Part shown: piece by piece, positions 20,910 to 26,361 of the stretch
Numbering within the stretch: the first letter of the stretch is position 1
Layout: each line of letters starts with the position of its first letter
Assembly (NCBI GenBank): GCA_947039545.1
Contig: CAMQZA010000004.1
Location: 1-39,423 of the forward strand
From: an uncultured Ureaplasma sp.
Lineage (GTDB): Bacteria; Bacillota_I; Bacilli_A; Mycoplasmatales; Mycoplasmoidaceae
Reading direction: 5' to 3'
DNA length: 39,423 bases
Position numbers and translations under genes: made by a program
The notes under the pieces: generated by a model
The model's input: only the letters and a program-made list of their open reading frames with translations
Databases searched by the model: none
What the model was told of the DNA's origin: nothing

Positions 20910-21518
20910 ATGTCTGTTATAAAATATAAAAGTTTAGTCATTAATGAAAAATCAAAAATTTTATTAAACAAATTAAAAAATACTGATGAGGAAGTTCTTG
21001 AATGAGAATTATTTTTAATATTAAAACCAATGGCTTATAAAACAGCTATTAATATATATCGAGATAAATATTTTAATATTCCACTTGATTATGAAGATTT
21101 TGAATCAACAATTTATATGTGTTATCAAAAAACATTGAGTGAATATAGATTAAATAAAATAGAACTTAATATTTTTCTTGTTTGTTTTTCAAAAAAAGTA
21201 ATTCAAAGTATAAATAGATATTGTAATAAGTTTTTAACAAACTCGCAGAAAACTTTAAACTATGTTGTTGATGATATTACCAATGGTAATTCTATTGAAT
21301 ATCAAAATGAAAAAAATGAAATTGATCAACTAAAGTTACAACTTGAAATTGAAAATTTATTAACTATCTGTAAAAAAGATGAGTGAAAAGATATTATCAT
21401 TTTAAGATTAAAAGGATATAAAGAACAAGAAATAGCAAAAATATTGAATTTGTCTATTAAAAAAATATCAAATGAATTCTTATCCATGAAAAAATTTTTA
21501 AAAGAAAATTATTTTTAA
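20910..21518 (+). CDS. sigH: Alternative sigma factor, SigH-like
   Basis: A 202-residue protein with two sigma-70 regions: region 2 (about 35-105; DYEDFESTIYMCYQKTLSEY resembles the SigH core-binding block, followed by a helix with KKVIQSINRYCNK) and region 4 with helix-turn-helix (about 160-200; IIILRLKGYKEQEIAKILNL). Order sigH-rpmG-secE-nusG is the same as in Bacillus, which supports orthology to SigH over a generic ECF factor. A related mycoplasma factor (MG428 of M. genitalium) controls recombination genes. ATG at 20910 follows AGAAAGGAG. A TGA at 21384 is Trp and is required to join region 4. Its target promoters are unknown. Confidence 0.8.
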
Positions 21519-22302: not shown

Positions 22303-23040
22303 ATGAAAAAGAAACCACAAATAAATGAATATCAATGATTTATTATAACTGTAATAAGTAGCAACGAAGATTCTATTGTTAAAAATTTAAAGAGTAAAAT
22401 AGAAGCTTTTAAATTATCAGAACTAGTTCAAGATATCAAAATTATAAAAGATAGAAAAGTTGAAATTTTAGAAGAATATACTGAAGATACTCTGCCTTCT
22501 AATTATGGTAGAAATCTTAAAAATATTGTTTGAGAAGGGCCTATTCTTGATAAGAATGGTCACAAAAAATTTAGAAAAATCAAAGATTTTGAAGAAAATA
22601 GATTTCCAGGTTATATTTTCATAAAAATGTTAATGACAAAAGAAGCTTGATTTGTTATTAGAAATACAACTCAAATAATGGGTATTTTAGGTTCATCTGG
22701 TAAAAACACACCTCCAACACCTGTATCAGAAGATGAAATCGAAGCTATTTTAAATATTAAAACTGATTCAGAAGGAGTTATTGTTAATCAGGATGATGGT
22801 TCACAGAATAAAATTATTTCAACTGAAGATAGTGTTATTTTTGAAAAAATACATATTAAATCACCATTTTTAGTTGATCAAATTGTTTATATTAAGCAAG
22901 GTAATTTCAAGGATGAACAAGCCAAAGTAATTTCATTTAATGAAACAACAGGTAAAGCATTAATTTCATATGATTTTTGAGGTATACAACAAGAAGTTGA
23001 ATTTGATTTTGATGACTTAACATTAGAAGAACCTATTTAA
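22303..23040 (+). CDS. nusG: Transcription antitermination factor NusG
   Basis: Binds RNA polymerase and modulates pausing and termination. The 245-residue protein has the NGN domain: YQWFIITVISSNEDSI (about 10-25), an insertion, then RFPGYIFIKM (about 101-110) and WFVIRNTTQIMGILG (about 117-131). The C-terminal KOW domain has PFLVDQIVYIKQGNFKDEQA (about 188-207). It is longer than the roughly 180-residue norm, from a loop in the NGN domain (about 55-95) and a linker before KOW. ATG at 22303 follows AAGGAAA. Last gene of the sigH-rpmG-secE-nusG group. Confidence 0.96.
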
Positions 23041-23062: not shown

Positions 23063-25858
23063 TTAAAGACAAATATCTTCTTCAGTTAACTTTGTTAATC
23101 TAGTTTCAAATCTATTTCTTCATTTTTTAATTAAAAATATCATTAATATAATTATTCCGATTATTAAAATAGGTCCAACTATTGCAAAAATATTACCATA
23201 ATTCAAATTGATAGAATAATTAGAAACATCTTTTTCATTATATTTACTAACTTCAGTATTAATATAGCTCATCTCATTTATTTTTAAATCAATTAAATGA
23301 GAATCATTTTGAATTGCTAATTCACCATTTGTTGCTAATTGTTTTATGGGTATAAAAACTTTAATAATATTTTTTAATTCTAAATCAGTTTTATCAAAAA
23401 TAGTTACATAATTATTTTTTTCAACAATATCAAAATATTTAAAAAAATTTTCATTTGGTTTGATTATTTTTTCTTTAATATTATTTTTATTAATAATTAT
23501 AGTTTCACTAACCAATTCAATATTATAAAAATGAGCATAATATAATTGAATATATTTTCAAATAGGTGTTTTAAAAAGATACTTGAAAAATGTGTTATAT
23601 CTATTAAAATCATTTAATCCGTATTTAAAATCAATTGGCATATATAAGTTTTCATTACTAAATTTAACTTCAATTTTTAAATCTTTAGCAAGATAATTAA
23701 TATTATTAAATTCTTCTTCTGATAATTTTTTATAGTCAATATTATAAACATCCTTTTTATATTCTTTTTGATAAAGAAAATAATCTTCAATAATTTTATT
23801 ATTATTTAAAACTCAATTTTTTTGATCTTTTAAATAACTTATAAATTTTTCAGTTTGTTGAAATATTTCTTCATTATTAATTGAATTTATAATAAATTCT
23901 TTAACAATATTATTTTTGCATTTAATTAAAAAATATCCACTATCATCTCAATTACCGTCAATTGATCTGTCTTTAGGTTCAAGTTCTATTATATTTAATG
24001 AATTAACATTTGTTTTTTCAAAAAATTTATTTTTAAAATTTTGAGTAAAATCGCCATTAGTTCCATCAGAAAATATTCATTTATTAGTTTTAGCAATTAA
24101 ATAAAATTCACCATTTTGATTTTCAGGTATAAAATAAGGATATTGTTCGATATTCATATTAAAAGATTGAAAAGCTTCATATGTATTTCTATTATCAAAG
24201 TAGTTTAAAATATTTTTTGAATTTGAAATATCATATATTTCATTAAAAAGGATTCTTTTATCTGGCAAAATAAAATTACTATTCAATAAATTTTTTATAA
24301 GGTTCTTTTTATTCGGAATAAATTCCCCATAAGGATATCCATTACCTATATTTTCACCAGTTCCAAGAACTTCAGAAATATATGAATCTGAATCTATTTG
24401 AATTCCAAAGTTATTAATATTTAAAACATCAACATTATCAAAATTATTAGCACCTTCTCTAATCATTAATGATGTTTTTCTTTTCAATTCATTACTAATG
24501 TCTGAATTTTCAATAATATATGAATTATTAAAATATCCTGTTTTATTATGATCACCAATATATTTAAATTCAACATTTTCAATACTAATATTTAATAAAT
24601 TATTATCCTTATTTATCAACAGTAAATCATTTCAAATTTTAATAAAAGAGCTACCATCTCATATATTATATTTGATAAGTTTATTATTGATATTAAGTGT
24701 TAAATTAATTTGATTTTGTTTAAAAATAGCAAGAGCTATTTTATAAACCATATCAATATCAAAAATATTTAATTTTCTATCTATTGATACTAATTTATTT
24801 TTATAAATATTTTCAATTAATTTATTATATTCATTTTCATAATTACCAGTTGTTGGAATAAGTTTTGAATTATTTATATCAATTAAAGCATTATATCTTG
24901 TTCAAGCTTCATCAGCAGATATAAATTTTCAATTTTCAAAATCATTTTTAAGACTAAGAATACTTTCTTTCTTAACAATTTGATTTAATCATTTATCATT
25001 TTCTCCAGTATTAGTAATAATAAAATTATCGATTTTTCTTACGACTTGATAGACTTTACTAATTTCTCTTGCTATATGTAAAAAATTATTAAATCTAATC
25101 AAATTATCCATTTGGTTATAAGTATCTTTATTTCAAACCTCTCCATTGTTATCAAAAGGAACTTCATTTAATTGAAAAAAGGTATTAAAGAAATTTTTAT
25201 TTGTTATTTCGCTAAATTCTATTTTTTTATTCAAATTCTCATGGACATAACTCGGGGTTTGATAATATCTAATTGTATAAGCAAAATAATTATGTGCTGG
25301 ATAAACTGGATAATTTTGAGGTTTATATACATTTTCATCATTCAATACAAAATCATTATAATAACTATTTCCATATCAATTATTTTTAATATTAGCTAAA
25401 TATTTACCTTTTTTTCCTCCAATTCCAATACCAATAAGTTTATCATTTCATTTCGCTCCATTTGGATCAGCTCAATAAGGGTCTGGATCAGTAAAAAGTT
25501 GACTAACAGGCTTGTTTCAAACATTAAAATTAATATTCTTAGAATTTTTATCAAAAGTAGGTATGCTAATATCTTTATATTTATAATCTTGATATCAAAT
25601 TTTATGATTTACTCTAATACTTGAAAATATTCATAATTCCTTTATAGTTCTTACTGATAATTTAATATTTGTTTCAATTTTATTATCTTTAATTCAATAA
25701 TTAGAATTAATATCATTAATAATATTAATATCATTTGTCAAATTACTTTTTATTTCTTTTTCATTAATATTAATACCAGTACAATTTATAAAATTAGTAC
25801 TCAATATACTTGTTAAAAATAAAGGTAAGAATCCTCAAATAAATTTTGTTTTTTTCAT
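23063..25858 (-). CDS. Large predicted surface protein, signal peptide plus C-terminal membrane anchor
   Basis: A 931-residue protein I do not recognise. It starts MKKTKFIWGFLPLFLTSIL, a signal-type hydrophobic stretch, followed by FINC (24-27), which resembles a lipobox but has Asn where Ala, Gly or Ser is usual at -1. The body is rich in Asn, Lys, Tyr and Trp; many Trp are TGA. One membrane helix (NIFAIVGPILIIGIIILMIF, near residue 890) and a short basic then acidic tail ending EEDICL close the protein. So most of it is probably outside the cell, anchored at both ends or at the C-terminus. Intact over its whole length (no TAA/TAG). ATG at 25858 has AGGTGA. Adhesin, protease inhibitor or immune target are all open. 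Confidence 0.75.
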
Positions 25859-25866
25859 ATTATTCA

Positions 25867-25919
25867 CCTGTATTTTATAAATAGGCAAAAATAAATCAAA
25901 AGACCTAATTTTTTTTTTT
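25867..25919 (-). promoter_or_regulatory. Promoter of the surface protein gene with A11 tract
   Basis: Minus strand: TTGATT (-35), 16-base spacer, TAAAAT (-10), then AGGTGA and ATG at 25858. A run of 11 A (T11 on the plus strand, 25909-25919) ends 9 bases upstream of the -35. A near-palindrome CCTGTATTTTATAAATAGG (25867-25885) covers the -10. The tract is a candidate for slipped-strand length change. Confidence 0.5.
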
Positions 25920-25935
25920 AAAGTAATATTAAGAT

Positions 25936-26361
25936 ATGAAAATAAAATTTAAAAAAATTAATGAAAATATTATTGGAATTTCCGAGCCAGCTATAGTAGG
26001 TGATGTTGGTTATGATTTTTATACATCTGAAGAAAAAGTTTTAAAAGCAAAATCATCAAATGTTTTTTCAACAGGAGTTATGATTGAATTACCTGAGAAC
26101 TATTGAATGAATATAGCACCTAAATCAGGGTTAGCTACTAAACATGAAATTAATGTTCACGCAGGTGTTATTGATAATGGTTATCGTGGTGAAATAAAAA
26201 TTATGTTATATAATCACTCTGATAAAGATTATTTTTTCAATAAAAATGAAAAAATAGCTCAAGGAATAATTAGAAAATCATATGTTTTTGAACTTGAAGA
26301 ATCAGATGAATTATCTACTACTATAAGAGATAAAGACGGATTCGGTTCAACAGGTAAATAA
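25936..26361 (+). CDS. dut: dUTP diphosphatase
   Basis: Hydrolyses dUTP to dUMP, keeping uracil out of DNA. The 141-residue length and five family motifs fit the trimeric enzyme: GDVGYDFY (about 21-28), APKSGLA (about 60-66), GVIDNGYRGEI (about 75-85), KIAQGII (about 106-112) and RDKDGFGSTGK at the C-terminus (131-141). A TAATAT box (25924-25929) lies 6 bases before ATG at 25936, so the message may be leaderless. It is divergent from the surface protein and overlaps the next gene by 1 base (TAATG). Confidence 0.96.

Follow-up and report, generated by a model that had tools for sequence, protein, structure and literature searches.

In mycoplasma conjugation, the surface contact factors described so far are a small number of lipoproteins. 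CDS14 of the Mycoplasma agalactiae element ICEA is an element-encoded surface lipoprotein that is required for transfer and has been proposed to promote donor-recipient contact (PMC6030558), and P48 of M. agalactiae and M. bovis is a chromosomal lipoprotein of the recipient that governs uptake (PMC12892991). A further point of comparison is provided by the vlp genes of M. hyorhinis, which have a homopolymeric A tract in their promoter region (PMC10502178). Here we analyze a 39,423-nucleotide stretch of DNA from an uncultured Ureaplasma sp. (contig CAMQZA010000004.1, hereafter the window), which encodes a 931-residue surface protein with a run of 11 A (A11) upstream of the gene. An earlier note on this DNA had raised the possibility of an on/off switch at the run, with a reservation about its position. 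Sequence comparison places the protein in a small, previously unnamed family with relatives in conjugation clusters, and we lean towards a chromosomal contact or adhesion protein that is exchanged with conjugative elements and steadily expressed, with A11 as a length-conserved structural element.

Like CDS14, the element-borne members of this family are surface proteins whose genes accompany VirB4-like (CDS5 in ICEA) and TraG-like genes in a conjugative element of mycoplasmas. In contrast to the lipoprotein CDS14, the family lacks a conserved lipobox, its members either carry a C-terminal helix as anchor or have no anchor, and a stand-alone chromosomal copy exists in addition. The likeness to CDS14 is one of setting only. 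The window protein resembles P48 in being a chromosomally encoded surface protein, which in the case of P48 bears on conjugation.

The surface protein has relatives in conjugation clusters

The surface-protein gene is flanked by nusG (22303-23040) on one side and by the divergent dut on the other. Its reading frame is uninterrupted under translation table 4, with the ATG at 25858 and 19 TGA codons read as tryptophan. The signal sequence, a lone strong hydrophobic helix and a short basic tail together indicate a type I membrane protein, almost the whole of which would be outside the cell; Sec export, anchoring by the C-terminal helix and a large outward ectodomain of 860 residues are predicted from the sequence with good confidence. 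An intact extracellular-type protein had been described in the earlier note, and the whole reading frame, signal peptide and single C-terminal anchor agree with that description. The protein likewise has no match in Pfam, NCBIfam or PDB sequences, in line with the note, in which no known domain was recognized. Its features, all on the minus strand, are as follows:

23063-25858, minus: surface-protein gene, 931 residues under table 4, a single fused gene for a predicted type I membrane surface protein
25775-25858, minus: signal peptide MKKTKFIWGFLPLFLTSILSTNFINCTG, residues 1-28
23909-25774, minus: N-terminal ectodomain module, residues 29-650, the part in common with the unanchored conjugation-cluster protein
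25445-25489, minus: DPDPxWxDPxGAxWN motif, residues 124-138, a possible metal-binding loop that does not vary among the four closest members
24077-24112, minus: GxFYxI...W motif, residues 583-594, conserved more widely in the family than any other stretch
23198-23908, minus: C-terminal membrane-proximal module, residues 651-887, similar on weaker evidence to a separate anchored conjugation-cluster protein of 359/380 residues
23129-23197, minus: transmembrane helix, residues 888-910, hydropathy 3.2 at residues 892-910
23066-23128, minus: short, basic cytoplasmic tail, residues 911-931

Among 320 genomes of the order, six were found to encode family members, namely this genome (G000), G001, G002, G003, G005 and G007. 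The closest ortholog, with 80% amino acid identity, occupies the same position in the sister species G003, which shares ~90% DNA identity over the window. Distant members with 29-31% identity are found beside uvrA in G005 and G001, while the G002 member (L149:3431-5230), also beside uvrA, has 599 residues and no anchor and ends near the domain boundary, representing either a truncated or an unanchored form. Apart from this anchorless protein, the family keeps a signal peptide and a C-terminal anchor, the latter either in the same chain or on a separate partner. No further relatives were found in GTDB 220 contigs, viral contigs or 395 genomes of the class. A 19-bit match in G275 (genus g9), to a repeat surface protein, appears to be due to chance and was rejected.

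Relatives encoded in conjugation clusters were missed by the first profile searches and found by local tblastn with the G005 protein. The clusters of this genome and of G003 are located as follows:

L122:3047-15765: conjugation cluster of this genome, contig C2
L098:1148-14328: conjugation cluster of G003

The gene order in G003 is p136, p564, p298, VirB4, TraG, two small related genes, a gene for a 110-residue protein and genes for proteins of 359 and 743 residues, of which the 359-residue protein has a signal peptide and a C-terminal helix and the 743-residue protein a signal peptide without an anchor. A tyrosine recombinase gene, rather than a DDE transposase, follows ~1 kb past the 743-residue gene. 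Contig C2 of this genome carries the same cluster with both genes, encoding the secreted protein and its membrane-anchored partner; the assemblies compared are incomplete (89% for this genome), and here the copy of the type IV secretion system (T4SS) cluster is cut by the contig end. VirB4, TraG and the relative, which lies a short way downstream of them, are co-oriented in both genomes. The best NCBIfam match of VirB4 is the Mbov_0397 family ATPase of integrative conjugative elements (E 1e-92, below the cut-off of that model).

The 743-residue protein matches residues ~165-648 of the window protein with 67 bits, compared with a maximum of 28.5 in 200 shuffles, and hhalign aligns the two over 426 columns (probability 98, E 1e-14). 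This homology includes the GxFYxI...W motif and stops at residue 648, which is where the split protein ends. The 359-residue protein aligns with residues ~804-914 (hhalign E 6e-5, probability 65) and reaches 34 bits against the G003 ortholog. The simplest reading of these alignments is that the window protein represents a fused form of a two-gene module with the order reversed, the evidence for the C-terminal half being weaker. The search for remote homologues suggested in the earlier note has thus yielded a family that includes conjugation-cluster proteins.

A second case of linkage is found in another genus, where G007 encodes a fused member of at least 898 residues directly after TraG. This protein matches the family profile with E 3.7e-5 and probability 71 over 457 colinear columns. 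It is closest to a stand-alone chromosomal G007 protein of 792 residues (102 bits), which itself matches the window protein with 57 bits. One chromosomal and one conjugation-linked member are consequently kept in two lineages. In this genome the conjugation-cluster relative is the only other one found, and the surface gene stands alone at its locus between nusG and dut. Since the window copy is not linked to VirB4/TraG and just its paralog is, such linkage does not define every member.

Two further observations concern the clusters. A repeated family of 226-259 residues without Pfam match (L098:5303-6867, L104:898-3972 and L135:6158-7656) occurs in tandem beside VirB4/TraG in G003 and G005, with another array in G003. 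On the opposite strand of the cluster of this genome, a 213-residue reading frame resembling a signal-peptide protein (L122:3509-4150) overlaps the start region of the cluster's 570-residue gene and may be a chance frame.

Cys26 of the window protein resembles a lipobox cysteine; it is replaced by Phe in the G003 ortholog and missing in other members, and the protein is therefore not considered a lipoprotein. A tandem repeat array of the vlp kind was looked for in the protein and not found. In the comparison with G003, the ratio of nonsynonymous to synonymous substitution rates (dN/dS) of the gene is 0.23, compared with 0.06-0.30 for 23 other window genes. This value, well below 1 though among the higher ones of the window, indicates a protein kept by selection under a somewhat looser constraint, as would be anticipated for a protein at the cell surface.

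The A11 tract is rare in the genome and constant in length

The homopolymer of 11 A reported in the earlier note is present at 25909-25919. It is one of just 2 A/T runs of at least 11 nt across this genome (~629 kb), compared with 19-78 predicted by Markov models (orders 1-6) and 6 by a model of order 0. Long runs are depleted relative to expectation, which argues against A11 being a chance result of AT-richness. The second run, a T12 on contig C9, follows a strong hairpin (z score -4.5) as the tail of a terminator; no hairpin accompanies the T11 of the window (z score 0.14), and a terminator role was rejected.

G003 carries exactly A11 at the equivalent position, at a divergence of 0.3-0.5 substitutions per silent site (dS) in neighboring genes. 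The tract is part of a 60-bp block identical in both species that is itself unexceptional, ranking 25th longest within the window; the informative point is the equal tract length and not the block. Among the 57 other runs of at least 9 nt that could be aligned between this genome and G003, only 20 are unchanged in length. A search for MutS was negative for all six genomes of the genus, in a test in which 11 of 14 controls were positive. In a genus without MutS, slippage should go uncorrected and a free A11 should drift, so that its constant length suggests selection on length or coincidence and not a free-running switch. Taken together, on/off switching through A11 appears unlikely from the sequence comparison, given its equal length in G003, its assigned -35 element that is not conserved and its position nearer the candidate dut -10. 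A runs show no genome-wide positional enrichment at this promoter position either, and a general use similar to UP elements was rejected on these grounds.

A11 sits between the divergent surface gene and dut

The surface gene and dut diverge from a 77-bp region that contains A11. The following features were assigned in and around this region:

25864-25869, minus: Shine-Dalgarno-like sequence AGGTGA, conserved in G003
25872-25877, minus: candidate -10 TAAAAT of the surface gene, position uncertain, conserved in G003
25894-25899, minus: TTGATT, the -35 of the earlier note, TTCATT in G003 and probably not an element
25909-25919, minus: A11 tract (T11 on the plus strand), unchanged in length in G003
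25903-25962: 60-bp block with no mismatch to G003, covering A11, the promoter region of dut and its first codons
25924-25929, plus: candidate dut -10 TAATAT, 4 nt from the T11 run
25936-26361, plus: dut (dUTPase), divergent neighbor

The earlier note had placed the tract upstream of a -35. A11 does lie 9 nt upstream of TTGATT, the sole -35 candidate in range, and outside any spacer between -35 and -10; the hexamer itself is not conserved in G003, and no general -35 signal could be detected. TTG is near background at every spacing upstream of anchored -10 boxes (152 and 195 in this genome and G003, respectively), so that the -35 is not a usable landmark in these genomes. The region contains 5 promoter-like sites compared with 4.2 expected in shuffles. 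A conserved TAGG...CCTA dyad around the candidate -35 was set aside because the same spacing occurs elsewhere in the genome. A transcription start set by TAAAAT would fall within the Shine-Dalgarno-like sequence, and the true promoter may thus sit elsewhere in the 77-bp region. Of the two candidate -10 sequences, that of dut is the closer to A11, and the tract, lying just upstream of it, could equally serve dut, which probably has a leaderless start as no Shine-Dalgarno sequence is visible. In G004, a third species of the same genus, no T tract of such length is found in front of dut.

Longer tracts in the genus have the geometry of vlp promoters

The A tract of the vlp genes sits in the spacer between -35 and -10. 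The likeness to these genes is that a surface-protein gene of the window has a run of A in its promoter region. Unlike in vlp, A11 falls outside any spacer that can be recognized for the surface gene and measures 11 nt in both species compared. The gene is solitary, with neither size-varying repeats nor a lipobox, and the genome has neither a paralog cluster with its own tracts nor a second A/T run of at least 11 nt outside a terminator.

G004 contains six A/T runs of 14-19 bases, mostly abutting a -10-like hexamer, at the following sites:

L111:2012-2028
L112:2041-2056
L113:692-710
L114:1979-2002
L115:2005-2020
L115:2445-2460

Examples are TTGACT-TGC-T16-ACAATA and A17-GATATAAT. On L114, A14G10 directly precedes TATAAAAT, followed by a signal-peptide protein of at least 656 residues. 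The long runs precede membrane, surface and glycan genes. With their vlp geometry they are better candidates for phase variation than A11, which is shorter and differently placed, and they likely represent vlp-type promoters. A G8 in the first codons of a 273-residue reading frame that by eye resembles a nucleotide-sugar dehydrogenase (L113:785-807) has the T19 upstream, possibly forming a double contingency locus. In G003, two further A11 runs both lie inside reading frames, and an A17 (L120:1543-1559) is located between convergent genes, which excludes it as a promoter tract.

Alternative functions of tract and protein

A contingency locus would result if slippage of A11 altered the strength of the surface-gene promoter from an upstream, UP-like position, leading to phase variation. 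We consider this improbable. The tract is rare for this genome, is not a terminator and lies upstream of a surface-protein gene, in a genus that lacks MutS and has vlp-like tracts in G004, but its length is equal in G003 at 90% DNA identity and A runs are not enriched at this position. Moreover, it falls short of the 14-19 nt of the G004 tracts without abutting the -10 of the surface gene, and the gene is alone at its locus and without tandem repeats of the vlp kind. A role in the dut promoter, where T11 would fill the spacer upstream of the -10 and set dut expression with the surface gene as a bystander, deserves some weight and is nonetheless on the unlikely side. The tract ends 4 nt before the TAATAT of the probably leaderless dut, and the conserved 60-bp block reaches the dut start while the surface-gene side is more variable. 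This block includes coding sequence that would be conserved anyway, however, dut of G004 has no such tract, and the absence of a -35 signal leaves no measurable spacer. We retain A11 as a structural element of the divergent region that would be conserved in length and not act as a slippage switch, with steady expression of the surface gene from this 77-bp region as the most likely mode.

A contact or adhesion function is suggested by genomic location and by the comparison with CDS14. The family may mediate surface contact: the element-borne member would help to bring cells together for DNA transfer, and the chromosomal one would serve as a standing adhesion or contact protein exchanged with conjugative elements. 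Several points weigh against this proposal. Homology between the modules is remote (23-29% identity), and that of the C-terminal module is suggestive at best. Structure prediction, also suggested in the earlier note, was carried out with AlphaFold on too shallow an alignment and gave low confidence (predicted local distance difference test scores of 36 and 49 for the whole protein and residues 41-262, respectively); Foldseek returned no significant match, and no fold backs the function. The equality of A11 is that of two consensus assemblies and is compatible with slippage or a shared 'on' length. Just two independent cases of linkage are known, and the T4SS-linked members do not form one clade (approximately unbiased test, p 0.011, long branches), which favors repeated exchange between chromosome and element. 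Linkage could accordingly mirror repeated capture of cargo, conjugative elements having taken up ordinary chromosomal surface antigens that play no role in transfer. That the linked copies are not one clade and that the G007 copy is closest to the copy of its own chromosome is consistent with such capture, which we still regard as unlikely given that the gene occupies a similar place in two distantly related clusters, right after TraG or a few small genes later, and that this genome and G003 retain both copies. As a more speculative and rather doubtful extension, the chromosomal protein might be the host version of the element contact protein, matching or competing with the element copy and controlling mating as a recipient or surface-exclusion factor; it would then decide which elements a cell receives or refuses.

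The family assignment provides relatives for a protein that none of the libraries recognizes, and it connects a chromosomal surface protein from a poorly known genus of mycoplasmas with conjugation clusters. The preferred reading of a contact or adhesion protein would add to the few lipoproteins a second kind of contact factor, present on chromosome and element, that is directly testable. For poly-A tracts called as switches, the locus indicates that tract length should be checked in sister species and against vlp-like tracts of the same genus.

Elsewhere in the window, a 202-residue reading frame without Pfam match (20910-21518) lies between a gene with a diadenylate cyclase domain and secE and is 92% conserved in G003.
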